Of a stretch of 48,147 bases of DNA, positions 10,176-38,812 are shown in pieces. The stretch spans positions 1-48,147 of the forward strand of contig NNSG01000013.1 of NCBI GenBank assembly GCA_002256485.1. The letters are read 5' to 3'. The notes below the pieces were generated by a model. That model did not search any database, was not told the origin of the DNA, and saw nothing but the letters and a program-made list of their open reading frames with translations. This DNA comes from Fidelibacterota bacterium 408169 (GTDB taxonomy: Bacteria > Fidelibacterota > Marinisomatia > Marinisomatales > TCS55). Numbering within the stretch: position 1 is the first letter of the stretch; each line of letters opens with the position of its first letter. Made by a program: the position numbers and the translations under genes.

Positions 10176-10204
10176 TGTTCGTTTCCTATTTCCTTTTTTA
10201 TTTT

Positions 10205-12570: not shown

Positions 12571-12700
12571 GATAATAGCCACAGATTCACACGAATAAAC
12601 GCGGATTGAAGTTGATATTTTATCATTATTATTTTGTCAAAATTAATCGTATCCATTTGAATTATTCGTGTCACTTTGCGTTCTTCGTGGTTAAGTAATT
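12571..12700. repeat. Dispersed 'CCACAGATT ... CCACGAAG' repeat, copy 2
   Basis: GCCACAGATTCACACGAATA and AACGCGGATT on the left face CACTTTGCGTTCTTCGTGGT on the right. The right arm is used as coding sequence: the last seven residues of the iron-sulfur subunit (LTTKNAK) and its stop are repeat-derived. It fills the gap before the molybdenum-subunit gene. Confidence 0.6.
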
Positions 12701-13890: not shown

Positions 13891-13911
13891 TTTATAAATT
13901 GGATTTATGGA

Positions 13912-19389: not shown

Positions 19390-19859
19390 GAAGTTTCACT
19401 CACAGATTCTATAGCATCAACTATTTTTTGATAGCCTGTACATCTACATATATTTCCAGACAAATCTTCTTTTATTGTATCTCTGCTTGGCTTCTCATGA
19501 TCTTTTATGATTTGTTCTCCCGATAAAACCATTCCAGGGATACAATAACCACATTGAACAGAATGATGATCTACAAATGCTTCCTGCATTTGATTTAGGT
19601 TGCCAACATCTGAAAGCCCTTCAATAGTGGTAATTTTTGAACCATTAACCTCTACCGCAAGAATAAGACAAGAGTTTACAGTCTTTCCATTTAATACAAC
19701 TGTGCAAGCTCCACATTCCCCTTCACCACAAACTTCTTTAGCCCCAGTTAAATCCAATTCATACCGCAAAAAGTCCAGTAACCTCATTTCAGGAGACACA
19801 TCCGCAGTGATAGTTTGGCCATTCACCTTACACGATATTGGATATGGTTGATTAATCAT
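19386..19859 (-). CDS. [2Fe-2S] subunit of a xanthine dehydrogenase-type enzyme
   Basis: This 157-residue protein has all eight cluster ligands: C44, C49, C52 (VCGEGECGACTV) and C64 (NSC) for the ferredoxin-like cluster, and C103, C106, C138, C140 (QCGYCIPGM, ICRCTGY) for the helical cluster. It is the normal counterpart of the modified subunit at 12671-13132. It carries electrons from the molybdenum site to the FAD subunit, whose gene overlaps its 3' end by 4 nt. Length and motifs match XdhC/CoxS-like subunits. Confidence 0.92.
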   Translation of the reverse strand: MINQPYPISCKVNGQTITADVSPEMRLLDFLRYELDLTGAKEVCGEGECGACTVVLNGKTVNSCLILAVEVNGSKITTIEGLSDVGNLNQMQEAFVDHHSVQCGYCIPGMVLSGEQIIKDHEKPSRDTIKEDLSGNICRCTGYQKIVDAIESVSETS

Positions 19860-19863
19860 TAGA

Positions 19864-21090: not shown

Positions 21091-21129
21091 TAACTTGTTT
21101 TATTTAGCGTTTCATTGCGACTTTTTCGG

Positions 21130-22596: not shown

Positions 22597-22606
22597 TTTT
22601 TGTCCT

Positions 22607-23569
22607 TTAATTCAATATTATTTCTGTACCTGAATCACCGTTTAAGGCAGATAAGGCATTATTGATTGATGTTATAATTGCTCTTTCTCCCCCATTTTTA
22701 ACAAAATCAATGCAAGCTCTCACTTTCGGCGCCATACTTCCTTCAGGAAATTGGCCATCCGCTAAATACTCATTTGCTTCTTCAATTGTCATTTGGCGAA
22801 CTGGCTTTTCATTTTCTTTTCCATAGTTGATATAAACATGATCGACATCCGTTAGTACGAGGAATATATCGCCATCAACTACTTGAGCTAATTTCATTCC
22901 AGCCATATCTTTATCAATGACAGCTTCGATGCCAACTAATTCTCCATTTGGCTGTTTCATGACAGGAATTCCACCGCCACCTGATGTAATAACAATGACG
23001 CGTTTTCCTACCAGCGTGCGAATAACTTTTGCTTCAACAAGTCCAATGGGTGCGGGAGATGGCACAACTCGTCGCCAATTTTTATCCGTCCCAGATCGTG
23101 CTTCTTTTACAATATATCCTTTATATTTTTCAAGCTCTTTCGCTTCTTCTTCTGTGTAGAATGGACCAACCGGTTTGGATGGATCCTGAAAATCTGGATC
23201 ATTCTTGTCCACAATCATTTGTGTAATAAGTGATGCGATGGGAATTTCCCTTCCGTCGCGACGAAATGCATTTTGTAGTTGGTTTTGAAACATATACCCA
23301 ATTTCACCTTGTGTCATAGCATCCACCACATCTAAAGGCATAGAAGGAACTAATTTGCTCCCTTCTTCTTGCTGAATTAACAAATTTCCAGCTTGGGGGC
23401 CATTTCCATGAGTCAAGACCATCAAATAGTCCTGTTGGTTCATTTTCACCAATTGTTCACAAGAAATTGCAACATTGCGGAATTGGTCTTCAGCAGTCCC
23501 AATTTCACCAGACTTTTTAATGGCATTGCCACCTAAAGCAATAACAACCAGCTTTTTACCGTTAATCAT
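22607..23569 (-). CDS. arcC: Carbamate kinase
   Basis: The 320-residue enzyme is full length for the family. Motifs include VIALGGNAIKK (residues 9-19), LTHGNGPQAGN (52-62), and the ITSGGGGIPV nucleotide-site loop. It converts carbamoyl phosphate plus ADP to ATP plus carbamate. It starts 1 nt after the ygeW stop codon, so the two steps (release of carbamoyl phosphate by a carbamoyltransferase and recovery of ATP) are directly linked, as in other fermentative purine/allantoin clusters. Soluble cytoplasmic enzyme. Confidence 0.95.
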   Translation of the reverse strand: MINGKKLVVIALGGNAIKKSGEIGTAEDQFRNVAISCEQLVKMNQQDYLMVLTHGNGPQAGNLLIQQEEGSKLVPSMPLDVVDAMTQGEIGYMFQNQLQNAFRRDGREIPIASLITQMIVDKNDPDFQDPSKPVGPFYTEEEAKELEKYKGYIVKEARSGTDKNWRRVVPSPAPIGLVEAKVIRTLVGKRVIVITSGGGGIPVMKQPNGELVGIEAVIDKDMAGMKLAQVVDGDIFLVLTDVDHVYINYGKENEKPVRQMTIEEANEYLADGQFPEGSMAPKVRACIDFVKNGGERAIITSINNALSALNGDSGTEIILN

Positions 23570-23570
23570 T

Positions 23571-24752
23571 TTAGTGCCGCTTCTTATTTTGATTCACAAG
23601 TTCACTTAATTTTTCTATTGGATTATTTAATCGGCCCAAAAACATCATGGATGCTATGACGAAAGGCTTATAACTGGCTTCGATATAAGTATCCTTTCGA
23701 TATCGATCAAATACGGTTTTACTGACTTCACCTTTTTCACAGCTCACATCCGTTATATCTGCTGGAAGGCAATGCATATAGAGCGCTTTCCCATCCTTTG
23801 TGGCTGCCATTTTTTCTTCATCACATTCCCAATCAGTGAACCGAGCATTATTCGCCAATGCATCTTGCTCAAGAGACTTTAACCCAGCTTTATCCCCTGC
23901 TTTTAGCAATTCTGTTCGTTGCCCCATTACATCATAGGGAGCCCAGGATTTTGGATAAACGATATCCGCAACTTGAAAAGCTTCGGTCATGTCATTACTT
24001 ACTGAAAAAGACCCACCGCTGGCAACAGCCTGCTTACCTGCTAATTCTGTCACATCTGGAATGAGCCCATATCCTTCAGGATGGGCCAATGTTACATCCA
24101 TGCCAAAGCGAGTCATTAGTCCAATGATTCCCTGGGGGACAGAAAGTGGTTTCCCATAACTTGGGGAATAGGCCCATGTCATTGCAATCTTTTTTCCTTT
24201 TAAGTTGTCCAAAGATCCGAATGTATGTTTCAACATTGCTAAATCTGACATACTTTGGGTTGGGTGGTCAATATCACACTGAAGATTCACAAGTGCAGGT
24301 CGTTGGTGCAATGTACCTTCTTCAAATCCAGTTTGAACAGCGTCTGCTACTTCTCTCATATAGGTATTTCCTTCACCCAAGAACATATCATCACGAATAC
24401 CAATCACATCTGTCATAAACGAAATCATGTTGGCTGTTTCACGAACAGTTTCCCCATGGGCTATTTGTGATTTTTCTTCATCTAAATCTGCAACTTCTAA
24501 ACCAAGCGCATTGGCGGCAGACGCAAAACTAAAACGAGTCCGAGTAGAATTATCACGAAAAATGGATAATGCTAAACCCGCATCAAATGTTTTATAGGTT
24601 AAACCTTGTTTATGCATTTCTTTGAATAATTCTGCCAAATATAATGTAGCTTTTATTTCATCATCCGACTTATCCCAAGTGAGTAAAAAGTCTTTACCGT
24701 ATCCACTAATATCCAGCTGGGATATGGCCTTTAATTGGTCTTGTATGTTCAT
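23571..24752 (-). CDS. ygeW: Knotted carbamoyltransferase YgeW
   Basis: The start is set at ATG 24752, 393 residues, because the 16 residues upstream are repeat-adjacent and non-conserved. The carbamoyl phosphate site is clear (FRDNSTRTRFSF, about residues 65-76), as are GIRDD, LVNLQCDIDHPTQSMSDL, and MHCLPAD near the C-terminus. This pattern matches YgeW, a trans-knot transcarbamylase found with selenium-dependent hydroxylase genes. In reverse it would phosphorolyse a carbamoylated (ureido) intermediate to carbamoyl phosphate, feeding carbamate kinase. It is the first gene after a repeat-filled gap. Confidence 0.92.
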   Translation of the reverse strand: MNIQDQLKAISQLDISGYGKDFLLTWDKSDDEIKATLYLAELFKEMHKQGLTYKTFDAGLALSIFRDNSTRTRFSFASAANALGLEVADLDEEKSQIAHGETVRETANMISFMTDVIGIRDDMFLGEGNTYMREVADAVQTGFEEGTLHQRPALVNLQCDIDHPTQSMSDLAMLKHTFGSLDNLKGKKIAMTWAYSPSYGKPLSVPQGIIGLMTRFGMDVTLAHPEGYGLIPDVTELAGKQAVASGGSFSVSNDMTEAFQVADIVYPKSWAPYDVMGQRTELLKAGDKAGLKSLEQDALANNARFTDWECDEEKMAATKDGKALYMHCLPADITDVSCEKGEVSKTVFDRYRKDTYIEASYKPFVIASMMFLGRLNNPIEKLSELVNQNKKRH

Positions 24753-24775
24753 TCTTTTCGTATTCCTATTTTTTT

Positions 24776-24856
24776 TTATACCAAGTAGGCTCAAAGACAC
24801 AAAGTGTTATTAATTATTTTTACTTCGTGTTTCTTTGCGTGCTTGGCGGCTATCAT
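24776..24856. repeat. Dispersed inverted repeat, copy 3
   Basis: ACCAAGTAGGCTCAAAGACA and CAAAGTG on the left are matched imperfectly by the complement of ACTTCGTGTTTCTTTGCGTG and CTTGGCGGCT on the right, forming a long stem. It lies between ssnA and ygeW and reaches the ssnA stop codon. It belongs to the same 'CACGAAG/GCAAAG' family as copies 1 and 2. Confidence 0.6.
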
Positions 24857-26178
24857 ATTTTTTCCATTTTTTGCCACAATTGTTGTGACTGATTTTCTGC
24901 ATTTTTTATTAAATCTTTTTCATTAAATCCGATGAATTCATTATTTCTAATTCTAAAAATTCCATTTGTCATAACATCACTTGGCTTTTCCATTCCAAAC
25001 AACGTATGTCCAATCCAATTGTTTCCATTGAATTCTGTTCTTGGGATATAATCAAAAATGACCAAGTCTGCTGCATATCCAGGGTCGAGTTTTCCAATTT
25101 TTCGCCCAAAAAGTTTTGTAGCTATTTCAGGGTTATTTTTGAATAACAATTCGGCATAATTCACACTGGCTGCACCCCCTGCAAGATGTCCGCTCCGAAT
25201 GAGCGTTCCTTCTTTGGCTTCTGCTAACATATTTCCCTGCATCCCATCTGTTCCTAATCCTGATTTCAATTGTTGAATTGTTTCATTAGGTGTCATGCCA
25301 ACACGGTTGTTTGCATTTGATGAAGGATTATGCACTAACATAGCACCTGTATCTTTTGCGATTTTTAAATCTTCTTCAACAAAATGAATTCCATGAATAA
25401 CAAGACTATTTTCATTTAATAAACCAAAATGATTCAATCGATCCAATGTGGACTTATACCCGCGTGAGACAGCATCTAATTGATCAGCTTTATCTTCAGC
25501 AGTATGGATATGAATTCCCCAGTGTGACTCAACCTTCAATACATCAGATATAGCCTGAAGTGATTCATCAGAGAGAGTAAATGACGCATGTAGTCCAATT
25601 AATGGACGAATGTTGTTCGACTGATCAAAAGATCGATGAAAGGAAATATTTTCATTTAAACTTTCTTGAAATGTTTTTTCGCCATTTCTATCTGTCATTT
25701 CAAATGCGCCAGAAATATTGACTCCCAATTTTTCGGCCGTTTCAGCAAGGAGTTGCAAAGAGCCATTTATAAATGATTGGCTGGAATGATGATCAATCAC
25801 AGTTGTTACGCCATGGCGTAAATGATCGATCAATCCTGACTCATAAGATGCACGTGTACTATCTTTGTCTAAAGCTAAATCTAAAATCCACCATACTTGT
25901 TCCAACACTTCTGTAAAGTTGGTTGGATTTCCCGTTGGAAAAGGCATTCCTACAGCTAAAGCAGAATACAAATGGGCATGGGCATTAATCATTCCTGGTA
26001 AAACAGTTTTGCCGGCTAAATCGACAGTTTCATCCACTTGAATGGATGAGTCTAATAATCCTAATTTTTTAATAATCCCATTTTCAATTAAGATGGATCC
26101 ATTATCCAAAAATGGTATTTCACCATAAGGATTTATAATTCTGCAATTATTTAATAAAGTTCTCATATTATTTTCCAT
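24853..26178 (-). CDS. ssnA: SsnA-type aminohydrolase
   Basis: The 441-residue amidohydrolase resembles SsnA of the E. coli purine/selenium cluster. It has HxH (H67/H69 in MINAHAHLYSAL), the WWILDLALD and VIDHHSSQSFINGSL segments typical of SsnA, IHIHTAED (metal His), VIHGIHF and GLGTDGMQGNM (metal Asp). It should be a zinc- or iron-dependent deaminase/hydrolase acting on a purine-derived heterocycle; the exact substrate is unproven. Two starts are possible: 26178, overlapping the upstream gene by 11 nt, or 26166, which has GGA at good spacing. It differs clearly from the 8-oxoguanine-deaminase-like protein at 13912-15300. Confidence 0.87.
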   Translation of the reverse strand: MENNMRTLLNNCRIINPYGEIPFLDNGSILIENGIIKKLGLLDSSIQVDETVDLAGKTVLPGMINAHAHLYSALAVGMPFPTGNPTNFTEVLEQVWWILDLALDKDSTRASYESGLIDHLRHGVTTVIDHHSSQSFINGSLQLLAETAEKLGVNISGAFEMTDRNGEKTFQESLNENISFHRSFDQSNNIRPLIGLHASFTLSDESLQAISDVLKVESHWGIHIHTAEDKADQLDAVSRGYKSTLDRLNHFGLLNENSLVIHGIHFVEEDLKIAKDTGAMLVHNPSSNANNRVGMTPNETIQQLKSGLGTDGMQGNMLAEAKEGTLIRSGHLAGGAASVNYAELLFKNNPEIATKLFGRKIGKLDPGYAADLVIFDYIPRTEFNGNNWIGHTLFGMEKPSDVMTNGIFRIRNNEFIGFNEKDLIKNAENQSQQLWQKMEKI

Positions 26179-28423
26179 TTAATGCATTTAATACACGTTC
26201 TGGTGTAAGCGGGATTTCATTCATTTGGATTCCAATGGCGTTACTAACTGCATTTGCTACTGCACCTGCTGTGGGGATTATGCTTGGCTCACCTATTCCT
26301 TTCGCTCCCCAAGGGCCTTCTGGTTCCGGTTTTTCAATGATAGCTGTTTCTACGTCAGCACTATCCATTGCTGTTGGTAACAAATACGTCGTCAAGTTTG
26401 GAGTTTGCACTACACCATCATTAATTCTAAAATCTTCCGTTGTTGCCCAACCAATTCCTTGCGAAGATCCACCTTCAACTTGTCCTTCTATTCCGGAAGG
26501 ATTGATTGCTTTCCCCACATCGTATGCAGCATAAATATTTTGCACATTAACGAAGCCTGTCAATGTATCCACTTTTACTTTGGCTATTTGAGTTGCAAAA
26601 GAATAAGAGAAATAAGCTTCTCCGATCCCTGTTTCAGCATTATAGTCTAATTCAGGTGTATGCCACCAGCCAGTGAATTCCATATCTGTTTGTGCTTTAC
26701 CCATATAATCACATAATTCATGGAATTGAATTTCTGTCCCCGAAGAACGATCTTTAATTATATCATTACCAATGGATATATCTTCGATTGAACAATTCAT
26801 CCATTCTGCAGCAGAATTTTTCAATACAGGGAGAATTTTTTTAGTCGCATTTTGAATGGCATTTCCGGTCATAACCACATTTCGACTTGCTACTGCTGGC
26901 CCACTATCTGGGACTTGAGCCGAGTTTGTAGGCAGCACAGTTATTCTATCGATGGAAATACCCATGGCTTCTGCTGTCATTTGGCGTACGGCAGTTTCGG
27001 ATCCTTGCCCCATTTCAACTAAACCATAAGCCACATGAACATTTCCGTCTGGAAATATTTTTATATTAACTCCAGAGCCATCCATATGCCATCCAGCGGC
27101 GCCAAGACAATTTCCATAGTGAATAGAACTCATTCCCAATCCATATCTATACCGACTATCATTGGTTGGTTTAAATGTATCCCATTTTGCAAGTTTAGCC
27201 GCTTCTTGAATTGTTTCTTCTGCGCCCACACTTTCATTTAGCACTTGTGCTGTCTGTGTTTGGTCTCCGGGTTTAACAATATTTATTAATCGTAATTCCA
27301 TGGGCTCAATGCCTAACGCATCCGCAATGACATCCATCATGCGTTCATGGCCAAAAGCCGCTTGTGGAGATCCAAATCCACGAAACGCACCGGTGGTTGG
27401 TAAGTTTGTAAGGTATGAATTGGAATCAACATGAATATTTGGAATCACATAAGGTCCCATTGCTTGTGCACAAGATCGATAAGAAACTACCGTGGATAAT
27501 GTGGCGTATGCGCCTGCATTTTCTTCTAATAATATTTCAGCTGAAACCAATGTTCCATCATTCTTAACGCCCACTTTATAATGCATTTGAAATGGATGTC
27601 GTTTACTGGTGAGTTGCACATCATCATGACGCGTGTAGACTACTTTCACAGGGCGATTAATTTTCATGGCAGCTACGGCAGCACGCGCGCAAACTTCTGA
27701 CGGAATATCTTCCTTACCACCAAATGCACCACCGGTTGGTGCTTGTTCAACTAATATATTCTCATAGGGCCAATCAAATACTCTCGCGATAGCTTTTTGG
27801 ATATAAAACGGACATTGGAGCGACCCCAATATTTTAATTTTATCCGGACCGTCCGGCGAAGCAATACATGCTTGGGGTTCTAAATAATAATGTTCTTGGT
27901 ATGGTGTTTTGAATCGCGCTTCGATGATATGATCAGATTCTGCAAAACCTTTTTGGATATCGCCTTTTCTTACCTTGTGACGACAAGCCAAATTGGATTC
28001 ACCAATAAAATTGTCTTCAGCATCTCTGCTTTCATCAATAGTATAATAGGGTGTTTTTTCTCTGTATGCTATGGATACAGCTTTGGCAGCTTTAATCGCA
28101 GCTTCATGTGTTTCAGCTACAACCAATCCAATGCTATCACCAATAAATCGAACTGTTTTATCTGCAAAAAGGGGTTGGTCGGGAACAATGACACCAATTT
28201 GATTTTCAGCAAGGATATCCTTGGCAGAAACAAAATCAATATACCCATCCACTTTTTTTGCTTTAGACAAATCAATATTTGTGTATTCACCAAATGGAAT
28301 AGATGAATAAACGGGTGCTCCATGAACCATATTTTCAACGGTGATATCGGTTAAAAACCGAGTTTCCCCTGTTGTCTTTCCCGGTGCATCGGGTCGGTTG
28401 ATTGATTTACCCAGTATACTCAA
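26168..28423 (-). CDS. Xanthine dehydrogenase molybdenum-binding subunit
   Basis: This 751-residue large subunit of a molybdenum hydroxylase contains TGETRFLTDI near the N-terminus, PTGGAFGGKEDI (Mo-cofactor contact), GAFRGFGSPQA (substrate Arg region), GLVEMGQGSETAV, EGQVEGGSSQGIGWA, and GPWGAKGIGEPSIIPTAGAVANA with the catalytic Glu. It is the second gene of the operon, 3 nt after adenine deaminase, so hypoxanthine made by that enzyme is a likely substrate. Its FeS and FAD partners are probably 19386-19859 and 18559-19389, an unusual distance within an operon. YqeB, YqeC and XdhC encoded nearby would supply selenium/sulfur to its cofactor. Confidence 0.9.
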   Translation of the reverse strand: MSILGKSINRPDAPGKTTGETRFLTDITVENMVHGAPVYSSIPFGEYTNIDLSKAKKVDGYIDFVSAKDILAENQIGVIVPDQPLFADKTVRFIGDSIGLVVAETHEAAIKAAKAVSIAYREKTPYYTIDESRDAEDNFIGESNLACRHKVRKGDIQKGFAESDHIIEARFKTPYQEHYYLEPQACIASPDGPDKIKILGSLQCPFYIQKAIARVFDWPYENILVEQAPTGGAFGGKEDIPSEVCARAAVAAMKINRPVKVVYTRHDDVQLTSKRHPFQMHYKVGVKNDGTLVSAEILLEENAGAYATLSTVVSYRSCAQAMGPYVIPNIHVDSNSYLTNLPTTGAFRGFGSPQAAFGHERMMDVIADALGIEPMELRLINIVKPGDQTQTAQVLNESVGAEETIQEAAKLAKWDTFKPTNDSRYRYGLGMSSIHYGNCLGAAGWHMDGSGVNIKIFPDGNVHVAYGLVEMGQGSETAVRQMTAEAMGISIDRITVLPTNSAQVPDSGPAVASRNVVMTGNAIQNATKKILPVLKNSAAEWMNCSIEDISIGNDIIKDRSSGTEIQFHELCDYMGKAQTDMEFTGWWHTPELDYNAETGIGEAYFSYSFATQIAKVKVDTLTGFVNVQNIYAAYDVGKAINPSGIEGQVEGGSSQGIGWATTEDFRINDGVVQTPNLTTYLLPTAMDSADVETAIIEKPEPEGPWGAKGIGEPSIIPTAGAVANAVSNAIGIQMNEIPLTPERVLNALNGK

Positions 28424-28426
28424 TTG

Positions 28427-29452
28427 TTAATTGTTATTTTTTTGATAATATTGTTCTATTTTCCGAATCATTATTTCTTTATCATCATCAGATAAAAAGC
28501 TGGATTGAAAACTGTTTTTCGCCAATTCCTTAATCTGTTCTTTGGATAGGTTCAATGCAGATGCAATACGACAATAATTTTCATTCATATATCCACCAAA
28601 ATACGCCGGATCATCAGAATTAATGGTAACCATTAACCCCGCATCCATTAATTTAAGCAATGGGTGATTTATTAAATCGTCAACCACTTTTAATTCAAGA
28701 TTGGATAATGGACAGATTGTTAATGGAATTTGTTTATCTGAAAGGAATTTTATTAATTGATCATCATCAAGAGATCGATTTCCATGATCGATTCTGGAAA
28801 CTTTCAACAGATTAATAGCTTCCCATATATAATCTGCAGGTCCTTCTTCTCCTGCATGGGCAACTGTAATAAATCCTTCATCGATCGCTTTAGAAAACAC
28901 ACGCTCAAATTTTGATGGTGGATTTCCCAGTTCAGATGAATCTAACCCCACCGCTGTAATCCACTTTTTATAGGGTAATGCTTGGTTTAATGTTTCAAAT
29001 GCAGATTCTTCATCCAAATGACGCAAAAAGCACATAATCAAATGGGAACTGATGCCTAGTTTTTCTTTTCCAACTTCTAAAGCATTATGGATACCATGGA
29101 TAACCGTTTCAAAAGAAACACCACGATCCGTATGGGTTTGTGGATCAAAAAATATTTCAGTATGAACTATATTTTGTTCATGAACTTTTGTGAGATAGGC
29201 CCAGGTTAAATCATAAAAATCCTGTTCTGTTATGAGCACACTTGCGCCAGCATAATAAATATCAAGAAATTCTTGAAGATTATTAAAGTTGTATGCTTTT
29301 TTAAGATCATCAACAGATGAATAATTGATCGAAATATTATTTCGATGTGCAATTTCAAACATAAGTTCTGGCTCAAATGTACCTTCGATATGTAAATGGA
29401 GTTCCGCTTTCGGAATCCCTTCAATAAATTCGTTAATTGAGATTTGATTCAT
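28427..29452 (-). CDS. Adenine deaminase (adenosine deaminase-like family)
   Basis: The 341-residue enzyme shows the family zinc motifs: [23 protein letters not shown] (H19, H21), HAGEEG (catalytic Glu and zinc His), RIDHGNRS and [13 protein letters not shown] (zinc Asp). The [11 protein letters not shown] and [10 protein letters not shown] variants are those of adenine deaminases rather than adenosine deaminases (HLDGS type). The predicted reaction is adenine to hypoxanthine plus ammonia. It is the first gene of the 20-kb purine operon, with a leader of about 320 nt containing the conserved palindrome/terminator element at 29613-29665. No Shine-Dalgarno is evident before its ATG. Confidence 0.85.
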
Positions 29453-29612
29453 AGTGTTTTGGTATTTTGATTTGAGTTTTTTCTAAAGGTCTTTTATCAA
29501 ATGATATTCTTCTTCGAATTAAATTGATTATATCTCCATAAAATGGATTTGACTAATTATTTCTATATTCCCAAGAATTTCATGAATCTACACATTTTTT
29601 CAAATTAGACCC

Positions 29613-29644
29613 AAAAAAAGGGCTGGTTGAACGACCAGCCCTTT
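29613..29644 (-). terminator. Terminator hairpin in the purine-operon leader
   Basis: Plus-strand AAAGGGCTGGT (29617-29627) pairs with ACCAGCCCTTT (29634-29644); read on the minus strand it ends in T7. It lies about 127 nt after the permease stop and about 160 nt before adenine deaminase. It may end the transporter transcript, or act as an attenuator for the catabolic operon, with the conserved element directly 5' of it. Confidence 0.75.
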
Positions 29645-29645
29645 A

Positions 29646-29665
29646 TTCCATTCCTGAATGGATAC
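29646..29665 (-). promoter_or_regulatory. Conserved 20-nt leader element, copy 1
   Basis: On the minus strand this reads GTATCCATTCAGGAATGGAA, containing the perfect palindrome TCCATTC-AG-GAATGGA (29647-29662). The identical 20 bases occur at 36061-36080, in the same orientation and also just 5' of a terminator hairpin. It could be a regulator operator or the first stem of an RNA attenuator. The remainder of the gap 29453-29770 holds no ORF I support. Confidence 0.7.
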
Positions 29666-29770
29666 ATATGTGCCAAGAAGTTAAAATATTACAGATAAAA
29701 TTCCAAAACCTGCTGAAAATATACACATTAAATCCTCGTTTGGATTATGACGATTATTTTACCTGAATTA

Positions 29771-30715
29771 TCATGATTTTTGTTCTCTTGAAAAGGGTTT
29801 CCCAAGAGCGCTGGGTCCCATGGAGACAGAAAGACCAACCGCTTTCTTTTTGGCTCGCCACATAGAAATAGCTAATAGGAAAATCGTAAACACATAAGGA
29901 AGCATTCCCAATAAATGAGTAGAAATTTGAGCACCGCGTGCTTGGAGAGCAAACCCAAGGGCATCCATTCCTCCAAATAAGTAGGCGCCAAATACAGCCA
30001 TTTTCGGATTCCACATAGAAAAAATAACAAGAGCAATAGCGACCCAGCCGCGACCTGCAACCATATTTTCAATCCACATTGGTGTATAGGCTAATGAAAG
30101 ATAGGCGCCGGCCAAGCCCATCATTGCACCACCGGTAAAAATGGATGCATAACGAATTCTGGTTACATTTAAACCCACTGTATCAGCTGTTTGGGGATTT
30201 TCCCCCACACTTCTGATATACAGACCAATTTTTGTTTTAAATAAAACAATCCATGAAATGGGTACGAATAAATATGAAAAGTAAACCAGTGCATTATGTT
30301 GGAAAAACACCTGTCCAATCAATGGAATATCACTTAATAACCACACATTAATTTCTTCAAAAGAGGGTGCAATTACACCAACCAACGGCGCCCCCAGCAC
30401 TGCGCTAACACCCGTCCCAAAAAATACGAGAGACAAACCGCTTACAATTTGGTTCACATTTAATGTAACAGTTAAGAAAGCATGTATCATACTAACAGCA
30501 CCTCCAGAAAAGCATCCAATGATAGCACCTACTATAGGATTTCCTGTCCAAAGAGAAGCCATAAAACCTGTGACGGCACCAATAAGCATTAGTCCTTCAA
30601 TCCCCAAATTAATATTCCCGGAACGTTCCGTATATATTTCACCAACCGTAGCAAAAAGAAGAGGTGTTCCAGACCTAACAGCCGCTTGGAGAAATGGTCC
30701 TAAAAACTCAATCAT
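29771..30715 (-). CDS. Nucleoside/nucleobase ABC transporter permease 2
   Basis: This 314-residue permease of the branched-chain/BMP-type importer family (NupQ/YufQ-like) has about eight to nine hydrophobic helices and the family markers GEIYTERSGNINLGIEGLM at the N-terminus and GLNVTRIRYASIFTGGAMMGLAGAYLSL in the middle (EAA-like coupling region). It overlaps the other permease gene by 4 nt. It is an inner-membrane protein. Substrate by context is a purine nucleobase or nucleoside. Confidence 0.9.
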   Translation of the reverse strand: MIEFLGPFLQAAVRSGTPLLFATVGEIYTERSGNINLGIEGLMLIGAVTGFMASLWTGNPIVGAIIGCFSGGAVSMIHAFLTVTLNVNQIVSGLSLVFFGTGVSAVLGAPLVGVIAPSFEEINVWLLSDIPLIGQVFFQHNALVYFSYLFVPISWIVLFKTKIGLYIRSVGENPQTADTVGLNVTRIRYASIFTGGAMMGLAGAYLSLAYTPMWIENMVAGRGWVAIALVIFSMWNPKMAVFGAYLFGGMDALGFALQARGAQISTHLLGMLPYVFTIFLLAISMWRAKKKAVGLSVSMGPSALGKPFSREQKS

Positions 30716-31785
30716 TTTTTAATCCACTGTATTTTATATCTTTTAAATGCTTCTCCGGCCAGTACAAAAAAGAGTACCATCCCTTCAAACATATGAACAA
30801 CACCTTTTCCAAAACCCATTGTCATTTGAAGACTGTCTCCACCTACTAGCAACGCCCCCATAAATAAGGCGACAAAAATGACCGCTAATGGATTTCCATT
30901 TGCCAAAAAAGCAATTATTATTCCGGTATACCCATAGTTGTTAGATATTCCGCCCAAGCGAAGTTTATGCTGAAGACCGGAAATCTGAAGCATGCCGCCT
31001 AATCCGGCAATGGCACCACTAATCATCAATACCCTGACAATATTTCTATTTACTCTTATTCCCGCATATGTTGCTGTTTTTCTACTTTGACCAATCACTT
31101 GAATTTTATATCCCCATCCGGTTTTTTTATATAAGACGTATAGAACAATAGCTAATATTACACCAATTATAATACCCATACTTAAACGAGTATTAAAGTA
31201 TTGGTGAAGTAAGGCGGCATCCGGATAGCGGGGAGTTTGAGGGAAACCCGGATATCGAGGATCTTTCCAAGGTCCATACAATAAATAATTCACATAAAAG
31301 ATAGCTACATAATTTAAAAGAAGTGTGGTAAGGATTTCATTCACTTGTAATCTTGTTTTTAGAATTGCTGGCGGTAATCCCCAAAGTGCACCAGCAACTA
31401 CAGCTGACAACATCAATAATGGAATTAAAATCCACGGCGGTTGGTTGGAAAATGCTTGAGCTGCCCAGGTGGCGCCCATGGCCCCCATGAAAAATTGTCC
31501 CTCTGCGCCTATATTCCATAGAAGCGTTCTTAATGTTAAAGAAACGGCTAATCCTGTAAAAAGCAGAGGTGTTGTTTGTACCAGCGTTTCCGACAATGAA
31601 TATCCATCGCCAAAGGCACCAACGAACATTTCTTTGTATGCTTCAAATGGGTTTGCACCATTTATCCAAAACACAAAACTTCCAGCAATAAGTGCAAAAA
31701 GCATTGAAACAACCGGAACGATGTAATCTAAGTTCTTGTTGTAAGATAATCGTTTTTCTAATTTAAACTGCAGCAATTTTCCCAC
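30712..31785 (-). CDS. Nucleoside/nucleobase ABC transporter permease 1
   Basis: The 357-residue inner-membrane permease (NupP/YufP-like) has conserved segments TTPLLFTGLAVSLTLRTLLWNIGAEGQFFMGA and GVRVNRN-type coupling helix (KTATYAGIRVNRNIVRVLMISGAIAGLGGML). It has about nine to ten membrane helices. It overlaps the ATPase gene by 23 nt and permease 2 by 4 nt, so all three are translationally linked. It pairs with 29771-30715 to form the heterodimeric channel. Confidence 0.9.
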   Translation of the reverse strand: MGKLLQFKLEKRLSYNKNLDYIVPVVSMLFALIAGSFVFWINGANPFEAYKEMFVGAFGDGYSLSETLVQTTPLLFTGLAVSLTLRTLLWNIGAEGQFFMGAMGATWAAQAFSNQPPWILIPLLMLSAVVAGALWGLPPAILKTRLQVNEILTTLLLNYVAIFYVNYLLYGPWKDPRYPGFPQTPRYPDAALLHQYFNTRLSMGIIIGVILAIVLYVLYKKTGWGYKIQVIGQSRKTATYAGIRVNRNIVRVLMISGAIAGLGGMLQISGLQHKLRLGGISNNYGYTGIIIAFLANGNPLAVIFVALFMGALLVGGDSLQMTMGFGKGVVHMFEGMVLFFVLAGEAFKRYKIQWIKK

Positions 31786-33286
31786 CTGTCATTAGAAGCC
31801 CCAATGCTTCAATATTGGTATCTTTTGTTAGCGACACGTCAACGATTTCACCCTCGTAAATAACTCCTATTCGATCTGAAACGGCTAATAGTTCTTCCAA
31901 ATCTTCTGAAATTAACAGAATTGCAGCACCATCGATTCTTTGTTTCTCCAAAGAATCTCTAACAAATTCTGTGGCACCAACATCTAATCCTTGTGTAGGA
32001 TGTACTGCAACTAATGCGGATGGGGATTCCGATATTTCACGGGCAATAATTACTTTTTGTAAATTTCCGCCGGAAAGAAGTTTTACAGGAGACTCAATTC
32101 CAGAAGTTTTTATATTAAATTTTTCAATCAATTTTTTGGTATAGTTAATGATGGCTTCATTTTTTAGAAATATACCTTTAAATGAGAATCTTTCTTCACG
32201 ATAATTTTTTAATACCATACTTTTAGGCATGCCTAAATCAGGAACAACCCCCATACCAATTCGATCGTCCGGTATATGGCCCACACCTTCTCTTATGGCT
32301 TTACGAGGAGTATTTTCCGATATATCTTTTCCATTTATAACCATCTTACCATCTGTGGAAGGACGTAACCCTGTAATCACTTCGGCTAATTCCTTCTGTC
32401 CATTACCGGACACACCTGCTAATCCAAAAATTTCTCCTTGATTCACGGTAATAGAAAGTTTATTTAGTGCTGGTGTTTTCCTATCGCTTAATGCAGAAAT
32501 TCCTATTAATTCAATCACAGGAGGTCCGGGTGTATATTCCGCTTTATTTGTTTTTAGAAACACTTCCCGTCCAACCATCATTTTTGCTAATTCTTTTTCA
32601 TTGGTATCCGTAACGTTTACAGTTCCAATATGTTTTCCTTTTCTTAACACAGTGATTCGATCACAAATAGAAAACACTTCCGGTAATTTGTGAGAAATAA
32701 ATATAATTGATGTTCCTTCCATTGCTAATTTTTTTACAATTTTAAAAAGATCATCTGATTCTTGAGGGGTCAATACAGCTGTCGGTTCATCCATTATAAG
32801 TACTTTGGTCTCATGCATCAACGCTTTTATAATTTCTACGCGCTGTTTTTCCCCAACAGAAAGCTGCCATATTTTAGCGTTTGGGTCAATTTCCAATTGA
32901 TATTTTATACCCAGTTCTGTAATGGTATTATAAATTTTTTCATAATCTGGAAAAAATGGAATTGATAGATCTGCCAAAGCAATATTTTCAAGAACAGTAT
33001 GCTCTTCAACCAGCATAAAGTCTTGATATATCATTCCAATACCCTGTTCAAGTGCATCTCGGGCAGACCATTTTAGAGCATTTACTTTATTCCCCTTTAT
33101 TGATAGTTCTCCTTCATCTAACTGGTATCGTCCGGACAGAATATTGGTGAGTACTGTTTTGCCAGCTCCATTTTCGCCGAGAAGGGCGTGGATTTCTCCC
33201 GGGAGAACATCAAAATCCACATTGTCCAAAGCAAGCACACCTGGAAATCTTTTTGTAATTCTCTGCAACTTGACGTACGGTTTCAT
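31763..33286 (-). CDS. Nucleoside/nucleobase ABC transporter ATPase (two nucleotide-binding domains)
   Basis: The 507-residue protein carries two fused ATPase domains, as in NupO/YufO and sugar importers. Domain 1 has Walker A GENGAGKT (38-45), signature SVGEKQRVEI and Walker B VLIMDEPTAVL. Domain 2 has a degenerate Walker A (GVSGNGQKE), signature LSGGNLQK and a degenerate Walker B (ALVAVHPTQGLD), as usual for the second half of this family. It powers the import of purine nucleosides or bases. A strong stem-loop lies upstream, between it and the binding-protein gene. Confidence 0.92.
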   Translation of the reverse strand: MKPYVKLQRITKRFPGVLALDNVDFDVLPGEIHALLGENGAGKTVLTNILSGRYQLDEGELSIKGNKVNALKWSARDALEQGIGMIYQDFMLVEEHTVLENIALADLSIPFFPDYEKIYNTITELGIKYQLEIDPNAKIWQLSVGEKQRVEIIKALMHETKVLIMDEPTAVLTPQESDDLFKIVKKLAMEGTSIIFISHKLPEVFSICDRITVLRKGKHIGTVNVTDTNEKELAKMMVGREVFLKTNKAEYTPGPPVIELIGISALSDRKTPALNKLSITVNQGEIFGLAGVSGNGQKELAEVITGLRPSTDGKMVINGKDISENTPRKAIREGVGHIPDDRIGMGVVPDLGMPKSMVLKNYREERFSFKGIFLKNEAIINYTKKLIEKFNIKTSGIESPVKLLSGGNLQKVIIAREISESPSALVAVHPTQGLDVGATEFVRDSLEKQRIDGAAILLISEDLEELLAVSDRIGVIYEGEIVDVSLTKDTNIEALGLLMTGGKIAAV

Positions 33287-33337
33287 CAGTTTTTATATGC
33301 TCAAGGTGTTAATAAATTATAAATAGATTGAATTGTA

Positions 33338-33375
33338 ACTAACCCGTTGCACAAAAATTTGCACAACGGGTTAGT
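33338..33375. repeat. Perfect 12-bp stem-loop between binding-protein and ATPase genes
   Basis: ACTAACCCGTTG (33338-33349) is exactly complementary to CAACGGGTTAGT (33364-33375) with a 14-nt loop. There is no T tract on the minus strand, so it is not a strong terminator. Such stems in transporter operons often protect the upstream message from 3' decay, giving more binding protein than ATPase. Confidence 0.7.
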
Positions 33376-33384
33376 GATTTCTAA

Positions 33385-34506
33385 CTAATGGTAGCGAACT
33401 TCGCCGCCGGGAAGGCTACCAACAATACCTTTTACAAGATAATATTGGCTTAATAATTCATCGTCCGTTGGTGTTACACCAGTTGGGATTACAATATTTC
33501 CACTTTGATCATGTATTTCACCCCCAAAAACAGCAAATTTTCCATCAAGTATTTCCTGTTTCTTGGCTTCAATTTTTGCAATCACATCTTCAGGGACCAT
33601 TTTACCAAAAGGAGATAATCCAACCACTCCTTCTTTAAGTCCCCACCAAATAGATTCCGGTTCCCAAGTACCTTCATGTAGATCTTTTGCTAAACTGTTT
33701 AATATTGGTGACCAATCCCAAACAGCTGAAACCAAATGTGCCTTGGGGGCGAATTTGGTCATATCAGAATTGTATCCTGTAGAGTACAGTCCTTTTCTCT
33801 GGGCAACCTGTTGAACAGCGGGAGAATCTTGATCCTGGCCCAATACATCTGCTCCTATTGCTACAAGGCTTTCTGCACCTTCTCTTTCTCGAGGAGGATC
33901 AAACCAGGAATTCGTCCAAACTACATGTACTTTTACATCTGGGTTTACAGCTTGAGCACCTAATGCCCAAGCATTAACATTGCGAATAACTTCAGGAATA
34001 GGATGAGCTGCTACAATGCCAAGAATATTGGATTCTGTCATTGCACCTGCTGCCATACCTGCCAAGTACATAGCATCATGTACACGGCCAAAATAATTGC
34101 CCATATTTTCACTGGTAAGAAAACCGGAGCAATGCTGAAAAACAGCGTTTGGAAAACGGCGTGCAACATTTAATGTTGGATCAGCATATCCATAACTTGT
34201 AGTAAATATGAGATTAAAACCCTTTCGAGCAAATTCCATAATGACTCGTTCAGATTCACCTTCGGGTACGGATTCTATAAAAGCCGTCTTTTTTACATAG
34301 GGAAGCTTCCCCAATGCTTTTCGTCCTTCATTATGCATGTATGACCAACCGCCGTCACCGACAGGTCCTACCAGCACGAATGCTGCTTTAATATCACCCG
34401 GTTTTCCCGGTGCAGCCATATCGCCTGCTTGTACTTGCATCAATGGGATTAATAGAAAAATCCCTGTGATACTGCTTATGATAAACTTTTTAAGATTATT
34501 TTTCAT
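33385..34506 (-). CDS. BMP-family periplasmic purine/nucleoside-binding protein
   Basis: The 373-residue protein starts with a Sec signal peptide (KKFIISSITGIFLLIPLMQVQA, cleavage near residue 27). There is no lipobox cysteine, unlike many Gram-positive BMP proteins, so it is probably free in the periplasm. Family motifs include AFVLVGPVGDGGWSYMHNEG, FTTSYGYADPTLNVA, VAAHPIPEVIRNVNAWALGAQ, VVWTNSWFDPPREREGAESL and GADVLGQDQDSP. It is close to purine nucleoside receptor/NMB-type members that cluster with xanthine dehydrogenase genes. It is the first ABC gene and lies 36 nt downstream of the porin gene. Confidence 0.9.
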   Translation of the reverse strand: MKNNLKKFIISSITGIFLLIPLMQVQAGDMAAPGKPGDIKAAFVLVGPVGDGGWSYMHNEGRKALGKLPYVKKTAFIESVPEGESERVIMEFARKGFNLIFTTSYGYADPTLNVARRFPNAVFQHCSGFLTSENMGNYFGRVHDAMYLAGMAAGAMTESNILGIVAAHPIPEVIRNVNAWALGAQAVNPDVKVHVVWTNSWFDPPREREGAESLVAIGADVLGQDQDSPAVQQVAQRKGLYSTGYNSDMTKFAPKAHLVSAVWDWSPILNSLAKDLHEGTWEPESIWWGLKEGVVGLSPFGKMVPEDVIAKIEAKKQEILDGKFAVFGGEIHDQSGNIVIPTGVTPTDDELLSQYYLVKGIVGSLPGGEVRYH

Positions 34507-34542
34507 TTTTAATACCTCTAAATAAAGGGTTAATTGTCCACA

Positions 34543-35970
34543 CTAAAATAAGTAAACGAGCCTACACATAAAGATCTTAATATCTTCTGCTGCTTCATCA
34601 CCCGCAGGATTCTGAATTACGGTAAAACCAGGAATTACATCCATTCCCGGTGACAATTGATGACGCCAGAAAAATTCGATCCGTTGTTCATCTCCTGAAA
34701 TATAATCACTAATCCTCGGAGCAAACCTTGCATCAACTTGGATAGGTCCATCTGCCCAATTTGGGTCCATTAATGACATACCTGGATCATCAAGAGTTGT
34801 TGCTTCATGGGAGGTTATTTTCGCCCAACCAATTCCAAAATAGTCTTCAGCAATAAAGCCGAATCCATTAGGTGAATACGTAATTCCTGCACCGATTTTA
34901 GATTTATTTCCTGTAAGTGAATAATTGATTGGATTTGCTTCTGCTTCATCATAGATGAAGTAAGCCATAATACCGCCGATACCTGTATTGGGGGTAATTT
35001 CATGATCAATATTGATAAACCAAGCAGACGCTGGATTGTCATCAATTGCAAGGGCACTGTTCCAAACTTGTCCGTATCCTGCTCTCCATCCACCTTTTAA
35101 ACCCATAAAATGAGAATAATATCCAACTTGAGCATAAGCTGCATTATAATCTGTATGTTCCTTTCCTGCTACTCCCACTTCAGGTGGGCTGTTAAAACCA
35201 GGGCCAGATAATGGACCGCCTGTATTCATTACGTCATTAATATCAGATGTGTGCCAACCAACTTCCAATGACAACAATTTACTTGTCATACGTCCGGCCA
35301 CACCCCAAACTGAAGGAGTTGCAGTAATAAGAGTTGGTGTAAAAGAATCTCCTGTGTAGCCGATAGTACCCACAAAAGCCCTGTCTTCATAAGCAACAGC
35401 ATTATTGTTAGTGATACCTACCGCACCTGTGAAATATTGATCCAATGGAAAGTGCTCAAAAATATCATATAGACCTGCAACAACTTCGTAGGAAGTTGCA
35501 CCCGGTATAGGTTTCCAGTAAATATTTGCTTTTTCAAGTGTTACACCGGGTATATTTGCTCCAGCTTCCATCTGTCTATCTGAAGAAACTGTATTTATAA
35601 TATCCCAGGTGGGCCTGAATTGATTCAAGTTGTCGGGTGCAAAGGGTAAAATATTATATGGACCATGAGCGGACACAAATCCTATAGTTGCTTTAAGAGT
35701 TTGCCATTCTTGAAACGTGATTTCTGCTCTTAACCTAGCACGATAGGGCAGCATAAGGACACTTCCATTTTCAATTTCTGTCCCTGCGAATGAAACAATT
35801 CCAAATTCATCTAAAAATGGTTCACCCGCTGGCAAATACTGAGGCGCCAAATGAAATCCGCCATGAAAGTTGATTTTGGGTTGGGAGTATATTGGATTAA
35901 GAAGAAAGATAATTGTTAAAATGGGAACAAAAACCATCTTGCTTATCCAAGTGAACTTTTTGTTTAACAT
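34543..35970 (-). CDS. Outer-membrane porin of the purine uptake module
   Basis: The 475-residue protein has a signal peptide (cleavage after about residue 30, IYSQ) and alternating aromatic beta-strand segments through to a terminal phenylalanine (MCRLVYLF), typical of outer-membrane barrels. Parts resemble carbohydrate-selective OprB-like porins (VEKANIYWKPIP-type and DYFGIGWAKI segments, and a late EFFWRHQLSPGMDVIPGFTVIQNP block, close to OprB C-termini). It has a strong AAGGAG site 9 nt before ATG. Position upstream of the BMP/ABC genes suggests passage of purines or nucleosides; this is inference, since the family is known mainly for sugars. Confidence 0.75.
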   Translation of the reverse strand: MLNKKFTWISKMVFVPILTIIFLLNPIYSQPKINFHGGFHLAPQYLPAGEPFLDEFGIVSFAGTEIENGSVLMLPYRARLRAEITFQEWQTLKATIGFVSAHGPYNILPFAPDNLNQFRPTWDIINTVSSDRQMEAGANIPGVTLEKANIYWKPIPGATSYEVVAGLYDIFEHFPLDQYFTGAVGITNNNAVAYEDRAFVGTIGYTGDSFTPTLITATPSVWGVAGRMTSKLLSLEVGWHTSDINDVMNTGGPLSGPGFNSPPEVGVAGKEHTDYNAAYAQVGYYSHFMGLKGGWRAGYGQVWNSALAIDDNPASAWFINIDHEITPNTGIGGIMAYFIYDEAEANPINYSLTGNKSKIGAGITYSPNGFGFIAEDYFGIGWAKITSHEATTLDDPGMSLMDPNWADGPIQVDARFAPRISDYISGDEQRIEFFWRHQLSPGMDVIPGFTVIQNPAGDEAAEDIKIFMCRLVYLF

Positions 35971-36026
35971 CTTTGAATCTCCTTGGTTTTTTATTTTTTA
36001 AAAATATCCATGTTTTCAAATCAGGC

Positions 36027-36057
36027 AAAAAAAAGGTCGGCGCTCGTGCCTGACCTT
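36027..36057 (-). terminator. Terminator hairpin in the porin leader (attenuator candidate)
   Basis: Plus-strand AAGGTC (36033-36038) pairs with GACCTT (36052-36057), with an inner GGC/GCC stem. On the minus strand it is followed by T8. No minus-strand gene ends upstream of it, so it does not serve as an ordinary 3' terminator; it stands about 57 nt before the porin ATG. Confidence 0.75.
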
Positions 36058-36060
36058 ATT

Positions 36061-36080
36061 TTCCATTCCTGAATGGATAC
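36061..36080 (-). promoter_or_regulatory. Conserved 20-nt leader element, copy 2
   Basis: Minus-strand GTATCCATTCAGGAATGGAA, with palindrome TCCATTC-AG-GAATGGA at 36062-36077, is identical to 29646-29665. It lies 3-4 nt from a terminator hairpin, in the divergent gap between the porin and yqeC. As a DNA operator it could act on both directions; as RNA it would be the upstream stem of an attenuator. Confidence 0.7.
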
Positions 36081-36254
36081 AAAACGTTATAGAACGTACT
36101 TTTATATTTAATAATGCTACAAGAAAAATATTTAGGATAATAGGATAGAAATATACAATTAATTACATAATCTAAAATAATTCTGGTCTATTAATAAAAT
36201 TGAGAATTATTTATTAAAAAAGAATCCATTGATAAAACTACGTTAATTTTAACT

Positions 36255-36986
36255 ATGAAATTCTCCAATCTTCTTTCAAAAAACACAACCGATAAAAGTA
36301 AACTGATTATTGCTTTATTTGGTGGGGGAGGAAAAACATCTTTACTGTATCAACTTGGTATAGAATTCACACAAGAGTATGATAGAGTATTGCTTACTTC
36401 TATAGTGAAAGCCGGACCTTCACCAGATATTCCAATCGTTCTTTCAAAACCAAAAAACAGTATAGAAAATTTATTTGTTGATCATAAACCCCTGTATCTT
36501 TTAAAAGAAAAAATCAGCACATTCAAATATAAAGGATTTGAATCCATTGAGTTAAGGAATTTTTATTTGAAAACTGATATTACTATATTTGAAAGTGATG
36601 GTTCTAGAAATTTACCTTTAAAGGTTCACAGCGAATGGGACCCTGTTGTTCCAGATTTTGCCACTCATGTGATTATCGTTATTGGAGCTGATGTAATAAA
36701 TACAAAACTTGTTGACGGCAAAGTACACAGGTCCGATCAGTTTAAATCTCTTTGGGAAATTGAAGATGATACTCTCATTGATATACCATTGATAACAAAA
36801 GTTGTAACGGATAAAAAAGGATATCTTTCAAAAATACCTGAAGGAATCGAAACAGTTTACTTCGTTAATAAAGCGAATACATATCATGGTCAAGCAAGTA
36901 ACTTGGCTCATTCGATAAGATCTAAATCGAATGCTTCAGTATTTTATGGAAATGTGTTTGAAAATTGGTGGAAACAAGTAAAGTAG
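36255..36986 (+). CDS. yqeC: YqeC, selenium-dependent molybdenum hydroxylase maturation protein
   Basis: The 243-residue protein has an N-terminal P-loop-like turn (LFGGGGKTSLLYQL, about 21-34) and the later FESDGSRNLPLKVHSEWDPVVP block with VIGADVI, both typical of YqeC. By comparative genomics the family is tied to selenium as a labile cofactor in molybdenum hydroxylases, along with SelD and YqeB. The gene overlaps yqeB by 22 nt and diverges from the porin/import operon across a 284-bp regulatory gap. Its exact biochemical step is not established. Confidence 0.85.
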   Translation: MKFSNLLSKNTTDKSKLIIALFGGGGKTSLLYQLGIEFTQEYDRVLLTSIVKAGPSPDIPIVLSKPKNSIENLFVDHKPLYLLKEKISTFKYKGFESIELRNFYLKTDITIFESDGSRNLPLKVHSEWDPVVPDFATHVIIVIGADVINTKLVDGKVHRSDQFKSLWEIEDDTLIDIPLITKVVTDKKGYLSKIPEGIETVYFVNKANTYHGQASNLAHSIRSKSNASVFYGNVFENWWKQVK

Positions 36987-37801
36987 ATAAATTGAAAATA
37001 ACCAAACCAAAACTATTAATCTGGATTCGTGGAGCTGGTGAGATTGGAAGTGCCACTGCTGTTTCTCTTTGGAAATCCGGGTTCAATGTTATAATTAGTG
37101 AAATTAATCCTCCTTTAGCCATTCGCCGATCCGTTACTTTTAGTGATGCAATTGTAGATGGTAAAACGACTGTTGCCGGTATACACGCGAAGCATATTCA
37201 ATTAAATCCATTCGATAATAAATTTCAAACGAATTATATCCCAGTTTATCTTGACAATCCTGTAAAAATACGATCCCTTTCTCCAACAATTCTAATTGAT
37301 GCTAGGATGATTAAAACTTACAATGAAGATTATCGAAATTGGGCTGATTATGTTATAGGATTTGGACCCGGATTTTCTACTTCCTCGAATTGTCATACTG
37401 TAATTGAAACAATGCGGGGACACAATCTTGGAGAAATTATATTTGATGGTTCGGCAATGAAAGATACCCTTATTCCCGGAACCATTGGCGGGGAATCAAA
37501 AAGACGTGTTCTTTATGCAGAGTCGGAAGGCTATCTAAAATGGAGTGTGAAATTTGGAGATATCGTTGAAGAAGGTGAATTAATGGGATTTATTGATTCC
37601 TCTGTTGAAATTCTGTCACCATTTTACGGAATGGTTCGCGGATTAATTCATCCGTCTGTCCAAATAAAACCTGGATTGAAAATCGCAGATGTTGACCCAA
37701 GAGGTAAAGAAATTGACTTTAGAAGCCTATCTGATAAAGCAAGAAGTCTGAGCAGAGCTGGATTAGAAGCAACTATGATTTTTTTGAAAAACCATCCGTA
37801 A
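36965..37801 (+). CDS. yqeB: YqeB, selenium-dependent molybdenum hydroxylase system protein
   Basis: The 278-residue protein has an N-terminal Rossmann-type WIRGAGEIGSATAVSLWKSGF segment, EINPPLAIRR, VIGFGPGFSTSSNCHTVIETMRGHNLGE, and a C-terminal KPGLKIADVDPRG segment. This is the pattern of the EF2563/YqeB family, a marker for the selenium-molybdenum cofactor trait. It overlaps yqeC and is followed 12 nt later by the xdhC-like gene. It implies that the host genome has selD, which is not in this window. Confidence 0.88.
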   Translation: MVETSKVDKLKITKPKLLIWIRGAGEIGSATAVSLWKSGFNVIISEINPPLAIRRSVTFSDAIVDGKTTVAGIHAKHIQLNPFDNKFQTNYIPVYLDNPVKIRSLSPTILIDARMIKTYNEDYRNWADYVIGFGPGFSTSSNCHTVIETMRGHNLGEIIFDGSAMKDTLIPGTIGGESKRRVLYAESEGYLKWSVKFGDIVEEGELMGFIDSSVEILSPFYGMVRGLIHPSVQIKPGLKIADVDPRGKEIDFRSLSDKARSLSRAGLEATMIFLKNHP

Positions 37802-37813
37802 TTTTCAACCCTA

Positions 37814-38812
37814 ATGGAAAAACGATTTTACCAGCAATTACTTGATTTTGATTTCAGTGAACCCAGCGCCCTTTGTACAGTTTTAGAATGGAAAGGATCT
37901 GTCCCCAGAAAAGATTATCCCATGATGTTAGTATGTAAATCCGGGAAAACCATTGGGACAATTGGCGGAGGCACCATGGAAAAAGAAGCAATCGAAAAAG
38001 CATTGGTATCCCTTGAAAATAATCAAACCTCACTCGATTCATTTGATTTCACAAACAATGATTTATCCAAAGATGGGGGACTTTGCGGCGGAACTGTCAA
38101 AGTTGCCGTTGAACCTTATACGAATGAAGTACAATCATTTTGGGCGGGATTATATGAGATGGAAAAGGAACAAACCTGGCTCACATCATATCATTTTCAA
38201 ACAAAAGAAATAACCCGACATTTGGTAGAATCTAGAAATGAAATTTCTGGTGTTTCTGTGGAAAAATTGGTTCAAGATAAAAAAAGTAAAACCATAGTTG
38301 AGGAAAATGCTATTCATCTATTTAGATACATTTCTCCTAGTCCAGTTCTTCATATTTTTGGCGGAGGTCATGTAGGTAAAGCTGTGGGAGAACTTGCTCA
38401 CTATATAGATATTGATATTACAATTTATGATGATCGTAAAGATTTTGTGAGTGAGGAAAGATTCCCCTTTGCAATATCTCGTTCGTTTGAACCTTTGAAA
38501 TCATATATAAATAACACACGTTTATCATCAAATGCCTTGGCTCTCGTAGCAACGCGAGGCCATCATCATGATTTAAAATTAATTCGATGGATATTAAAAA
38601 CTAATGCCCAATGGATCGGACTTGTAAGCAGTAAACGAAAATGGAAAATGCTATCTCAAGGGTTAAAAAAAGAAGGATTTACTCTAAAAGATTTAGAGCG
38701 GGTTCATGCACCTGTAGGATTGGATATCCATGCTCAAACAGTCCCGGAAATTGCCGTGAGCATTATAGGTGGAATTGTTGAATTTTTACGAACAACCAAA
38801 ACAAAGGATTAA
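37814..38812 (+). CDS. xdhC: XdhC/CoxI-family molybdenum cofactor maturation protein
   Basis: The 332-residue protein has an N-terminal XdhC/CoxI domain (CTVLEWKGSVPRKDYPMMLV, TIGTIGGGTMEKEAI, GGLCGGTVKVAVEPY with C91) and a C-terminal Rossmann domain (HIFGGGHVGKAVGELAH, TRGHHHDL, IGLVSSKRKW, HAPVGLDIHAQTVPEIAVSI). XdhC-type proteins hold the molybdenum cofactor and help convert it to its sulfurated (or selenated) form before insertion into xanthine dehydrogenase. It is the last clear gene of the yqeC-yqeB-xdhC unit. Confidence 0.9.
   Translation: MEKRFYQQLLDFDFSEPSALCTVLEWKGSVPRKDYPMMLVCKSGKTIGTIGGGTMEKEAIEKALVSLENNQTSLDSFDFTNNDLSKDGGLCGGTVKVAVEPYTNEVQSFWAGLYEMEKEQTWLTSYHFQTKEITRHLVESRNEISGVSVEKLVQDKKSKTIVEENAIHLFRYISPSPVLHIFGGGHVGKAVGELAHYIDIDITIYDDRKDFVSEERFPFAISRSFEPLKSYINNTRLSSNALALVATRGHHHDLKLIRWILKTNAQWIGLVSSKRKWKMLSQGLKKEGFTLKDLERVHAPVGLDIHAQTVPEIAVSIIGGIVEFLRTTKTKD

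Follow-up and report, generated by a model that had tools for sequence, protein, structure and literature searches.

We found a 20-nt palindrome, followed directly by an intrinsic terminator, in the leaders of two purine operons in the window (the whole 48,147-nt stretch of DNA that was analysed) and at the same place before the purine genes of relatives. This bears out the proposal in the initial annotation of the stretch that the two operons share a control element. Our tentative reading, the chances of which we put just short of even, is that the element forms the shared cis-regulatory leader of a regulon for purine uptake and breakdown and works as an attenuator read by a trans-acting factor. 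It is the gene context that suggests a response to purines.

Palindrome, terminators and purine genes in the window

Two exact copies of GTATCCATTCAGGAATGGAA occur in the window, both on the minus strand (copy 1 at 29646-29665 and copy 2 at 36061-36080), and dinucleotide shuffles gave a chance expectation of 0 for this 20-mer. Read as DNA, it is a 7-2-7 palindrome (TCCATTC-AG-GAATGGA). The initial annotation would have given up its proposal if the 20-mer were scattered over unrelated genes; no such scatter was seen, and when the own genome (2.47 Mb) was searched with as many as 3 mismatches allowed, no third site came up. The annotated positions were confirmed, as was the hairpin with T7 or T8 behind each copy, namely GGGCTGGT/ACCAGCCC with T7 behind copy 1 (29613..29644, minus strand) and GGTC-A-GGC/GCC-GACC with T8 behind copy 2 (36027..36057, minus strand). 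Both of these hairpins are strong and lie directly 3' of the 20-mer, and their sequences are unlike each other. Each has the make-up of an intrinsic terminator, that is, a GC-rich hairpin and then a T-run, which is retained among relatives. For the 20-mer itself, a 5-bp stem with the hexaloop UCAGGA had been annotated; folding gives 6 bp and a CAGG tetraloop instead.

Copy 1 leads the adenosine deaminase/xanthine dehydrogenase operon, in which adenosine deaminase (28427..29452, PF00962) is the first gene 3' of the element, and a xanthine-dehydrogenase-like molybdenum subunit and an amidohydrolase occupy 24853..28423. Copy 2 stands in the leader of the porin/nucleoside-import operon, which consists of an OprB-like porin as its first gene (34543..35970, PF04966 at its cut-off), a BMP/PnrA-like nucleoside-binding protein (33385..34506) and the ABC ATPase and two permeases of a nucleoside-type transporter (29771..33286), and all of these genes lie on the minus strand. 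The leader placement of the terminators is evident from divergent neighbours. Copy 2 lies between a YqeC-type gene that starts at 36255 on the plus strand, where divergent YqeC / YqeB / XdhC-type molybdenum-cofactor maturation genes cover 36255..38812, and the minus-strand porin with its ATG at 35970; its terminator is therefore in a 5' leader, and the previously annotated distance of 57 nt to the porin ATG is right. Terminators are not often met in leaders here: the 97 divergent intergenic regions of the genome gave 14 candidate matches, several of them at tRNAs or two-way terminators.

The window encodes two xanthine-dehydrogenase-type molybdenum subunits (10282-12582 and 26168-28423; 32% identical), and of these only the second belongs to an operon with the 20-mer in front. 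A minus-strand cluster at 8637-24800 holds YgfK, YgeW, a carbamate kinase, a YgeY-like hydrolase that scores under its cut-off, and an amidohydrolase that exceeds the 8-oxoguanine deaminase cut-off (8-oxoguanine-deaminase/SsnA-type). Genes of the YgfK, YgeW, YgeY and SsnA types are markers of the recently described reductive uric-acid pathway (PMC12507026), and here they are found in a genome of the uncultured, marine Neomarinimicrobiota, beside the genes led by the 20-mer.

Distribution, conservation and descent among relatives

Among 100 relatives, the 20-mer (0-2 mismatches) with an adjoining terminator was found in G004 (twice), G029, G081, G049, G054, G040 and G013. Two-mismatch matches in G060 and G024 had no terminator behind them, and neither had most of the weaker matches (2-3 mismatches), which were taken as chance. 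A covariance model of palindrome and terminator, built from nine copies, gave ten copies with 51-78 bits (high by construction, since nine of the ten served to build the model) in 8 of the 130 genomes of the order, and the next match had 30 bits. The terminator lies directly 3' of the 20-mer in all ten. No further convincing copy was found in 245 genomes of the phylum (next best 34 bits), and matches below ~35 bits were treated as ordinary terminators. The independent evidence for the element is the pattern search together with the score gap below the ten copies. When 84,980 species were searched for the exact pattern, 17 stretches were returned, and a GC-rich hairpin before the T-run was present only in Neomarinimicrobiota; matches from outside this phylum and from viral contigs had no such hairpin and were rejected. 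The G081 copy equals that of G029 over exactly 141 nt up to the end of the G081 contig (L035 1-141 versus L032). These genomes are of different families, the identity is probably that of a shared assembly k-mer, and the G081 copy, whose contig ends before the downstream gene, was left out of the independent count.

Nine of the ten copies lead purine genes, the tenth being the G081 copy at the contig end. The genes led by the element are adenosine deaminase (window, G004 and G029), adenine deaminase (G054, G013 and G040), xanthine dehydrogenase (G049) and the porin/import operon (window and G004); in relatives, some were assigned with Pfam and others by similarity of protein starts and of xanthine dehydrogenase. 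Among the more distant purine-operon leaders of the same order that were readable (G048, G051, G061 and the G064 porin leader), none carried the 20-mer, so that the element is confined to one group of operons. Homologous leaders without the 20-mer had been named in advance as evidence against a shared element: such leaders do exist outside this group of operons, while inside it the relatives carry the 20-mer.

The xanthine dehydrogenases of G029 and G004 are 93% and 86% identical to that of the window, whereas NusG is 95% identical to that of the own genome in G004 and 64% identical in G010, the genus-mate of G029. This mismatch suggests horizontal transfer in which the leader moved along with the operon; the element thus travels with an operon that was probably transferred, and few independent lineages are available. 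In G004, porin and BMP binding protein share one 879-aa open frame (L033 3733-6372), in which the porin match ends at residue 343 of 475 and the Bmp match starts inside its domain, owing either to an in-frame deletion/fusion or to an assembly error. An AAA/DUF4143 ATPase gene lies directly 3' of xanthine dehydrogenase in several relatives (L034 3946-5094, identified with Pfam; L128 4166-5000, L131 4754-5968 and L039 12708-13729, assigned by likeness of the N-terminus) and is absent from that place in the window.

The palindrome is nearly invariant across copies (TCCATTC-WG-GAATGGA). The sole change in its stem is C to T in G013, where a G-U pair is retained, and no pair of the stem is altered on both sides in the nine-sequence alignment. 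The loop of the hairpin is a CAGG or CUGG tetraloop, the GT on the 5' flank is invariant, and the 3' flank is variable beyond one A. In the terminator stems, the sequence has turned over and pairing is mostly kept, with two pairs altered on both sides, although covariation counts among the nine sequences were not above those of shuffles; the terminator loop is not conserved. The arms of the 20-mer hairpin and the terminator do not overlap.

Promoter-like boxes, possible attenuation and competing readings

Two sets of promoter-like boxes, P1 on the 5' side of the 20-mer and P2 on the 3' side of the terminator, may be promoters. The putative P1 of copy 1 (29676..29706, minus strand) comprises TTG (29706-29704), N20 and TAACTTCT (29683-29676), and that of copy 2 (36091..36122, minus strand) comprises TTG (36122-36120), N21 and TACGTTCT (36098-36091), with a predicted start at ~36087-36090. 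Seven of 9 copies have a TAnnTT box 17-18 nt 5' of the 20-mer, and 6 have TTG 40-42 nt 5' of it; the per-copy chance is 0.04-0.08, an optimistic value because the pattern was picked after the leaders had been viewed. Another TAnnTT box, the candidate P2, stands 72-76 nt downstream of where the 20-mer starts (7 of 9 copies) and would supply the -7-like boxes TAGATTCA of copy 1 (29583..29590, minus strand) and TATTTTTA of copy 2 (35999..36006, minus strand). The latter is situated 19 nt 3' of a T-run plus G, a candidate -33 box, and several copies have T-run plus G 19-21 nt before the P2 box. In G013, the hairpin region is 3 nt longer, which is compensated by a shorter spacer downstream, toward the P2 box. 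The boxes resemble the Bacteroidetes promoter consensus TTTG / TAnnTTTG (PMC7366714), and Neomarinimicrobiota may use such a promoter. In the own genome, an unsupervised search for promoters failed to converge on one; TTG-N17-21-TAnnTT[TC] was about twice as frequent in the sense as in the antisense direction of its leaders (55 versus 28), which supports a promoter weakly.

Considering that most copies have a promoter-like box 17-18 nt upstream and that terminators are kept in leaders, we regard transcription of the 20-mer as probable: if a leader terminator has a divergent gene on its upstream side, transcription through it must start just upstream. Terminator stems that vary and yet stay paired are also as expected if transcription passes through. 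If transcripts begin at the predicted P1 start, 7 of 8 leaders have hairpin and terminator together as their minimum-energy fold, and this, together with probable transcription of the 20-mer, favours attenuation. P1 would start a transcript ~6-10 nt 5' of the 20-mer, and the nascent RNA would fold the 20-nt hairpin and then, 0-4 nt on, the strong intrinsic terminator, because of which most P1 transcripts would end as ~60-nt RNAs. A putative trans-acting factor would bind the 20-mer, most likely in RNA, and set the read-through into the purine genes, and P2 may supply basal or separately controlled transcription. In its narrower form, namely a very short antitermination element in which a 20-nt RNA hairpin and a purine-responsive protein would control the adjoining terminator, we hold this reading with somewhat less confidence. 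The one-sided conservation, with a fixed 5' GT and a variable 3' flank, counts for the attenuator, as do the G-U pair retained in the G013 stem and the terminator that adjoins every one of the ten copies although few leaders of the own genome carry one. The shuffle-level covariation counts of the terminator, the small number of independent lineages and the probable horizontal transfer of the operon count against it, and so does the weakness of the hairpin (-4.7 kcal/mol, dropping to -2.4 in G013), which in the full leader pairs with a probability of as little as ~0.26 (G040). A further point against it is the invariance of the stem without covariation, which is expected of a DNA operator with 7-bp half-sites.

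Such an operator, bound by a dimeric purine-sensing transcription factor, is a close rival, plausible but on balance doubtful. It would lie near position +9 if it served P1, or near -78 if it served P2, and the terminator would limit leakage from P1 or insulate P2. The invariance of both stem arms fits an operator equally well or better than an attenuator, since both half-sites are almost invariant in operons whose xanthine dehydrogenases are as low as 67-77% identical to that of the window, and the steady distance from 20-mer to P2, with the length offset in G013, also speaks for a DNA site. However, an operator needs no terminator directly behind it in every copy and gives no account of flank conservation on one side. 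In G013 and G040, moreover, the P1 box is absent and a co-oriented gene lies upstream, but the 20-mer and terminator are retained, so that the 20-mer is not merely an operator of P1; this argument leaves room for a DNA site acting on P2. Known regulator families were not in favour of an operator either. When consensus HTH sequences were run against 78% of the own genome, none of the candidates followed up tracked the element. LacI was found in none of the own genome, G004, G029 and G049, and GntR in none of G029, G049 and G054, absences that may be gaps because the MAGs are ~89-96% complete. IclR was rejected as the regulator, being full-length only in G000 and G029, MarR candidates did not track the element, and one TetR partly tracked the purine genes but belongs to an ABC-transporter cluster and is missing from G013 and G029. 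As for RNA-directed factors, no RNA-binding antiterminator came to light; an ANTAR-domain protein was not matched in 8 genomes, where controls gave no match either, and NusG gave one match per genome at E <= 1e-10 and none in G029, a search that a distant paralogue (LoaP/UpxY) could escape.

P1, 20-mer and terminator could also make up a ~60-nt trans-acting regulatory RNA, termination of which would interfere with P2 as well, the -33 box of P2 overlapping the T-run. The predicted unit does own a promoter-like box and a terminator, and the T-run plus G spaced before P2 suits this idea; but the copies are always placed in cis, ahead of purine genes, an RNA acting in trans would not need two near-identical copies in a genome, and no targets were found, which makes it improbable. 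The initial annotation had further considered a riboswitch-like element. A compact purine aptamer governing the terminator would agree with the gene context and with a site directly before a terminator, but we consider it very unlikely: Rfam at gathering and permissive thresholds returned nothing relevant, including purine, xanthine and preQ1 riboswitches, and conservation is limited to the 20-nt hairpin, with arms clear of a terminator whose stem and loop vary freely. Equally unlikely is a border repeat without regulatory function, left by duplication or insertion of a transport cassette, which explains, as had been suggested, why two same-orientation copies flank the import module here and why G004 has one copy before each operon and module-less relatives have one copy, but not why those single copies keep 20-mer, terminator and spacing, nor why the window copies differ in terminator and P1 and are identical in the 20-mer.

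Comparison with known regulatory systems

How uric-acid genes are regulated across gut bacteria is, according to PMC12507026, poorly understood. No description of a purine element in Neomarinimicrobiota was found in the open-licence literature. The defined 20-mer is a handle for catching the regulator and for locating the remaining regulon, and it would be an antitermination site of unusually small size, provided that it acts in RNA.

The PyrR, LicT/SacY and ANTAR systems use a hairpin in the leader as recognition site and couple it to an intrinsic terminator, ahead of genes that share a pathway. The element is like these attenuators in that a 5'-leader hairpin is coupled directly to a terminator within a single pathway, and unlike them in that it matches no Rfam motif and its hairpin is clear of the terminator. 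ANTAR sites consist of a pair of neighbouring hairpins, each with a conserved hexaloop, of which the second overlaps the terminator, whereas the element has one conserved hairpin with a tetraloop. RutR, PurR and PucR are transcription factors that act as dimers on purine or pyrimidine genes through operators of their own, and the element resembles these operators in being a short, nearly perfect palindrome close to the start of several operons from one pathway; in contrast to them, the element is always tied to a leader terminator, and no regulator that tracks it was found. Its sequence is not known to resemble the RutR, PurR and PucR sites. With the guanine/adenine and xanthine riboswitches it shares the purine gene context and the terminator, but it matches none of the Rfam purine riboswitches and has no multi-helix aptamer. 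As a cis-element it is new, though the kind is a familiar one.
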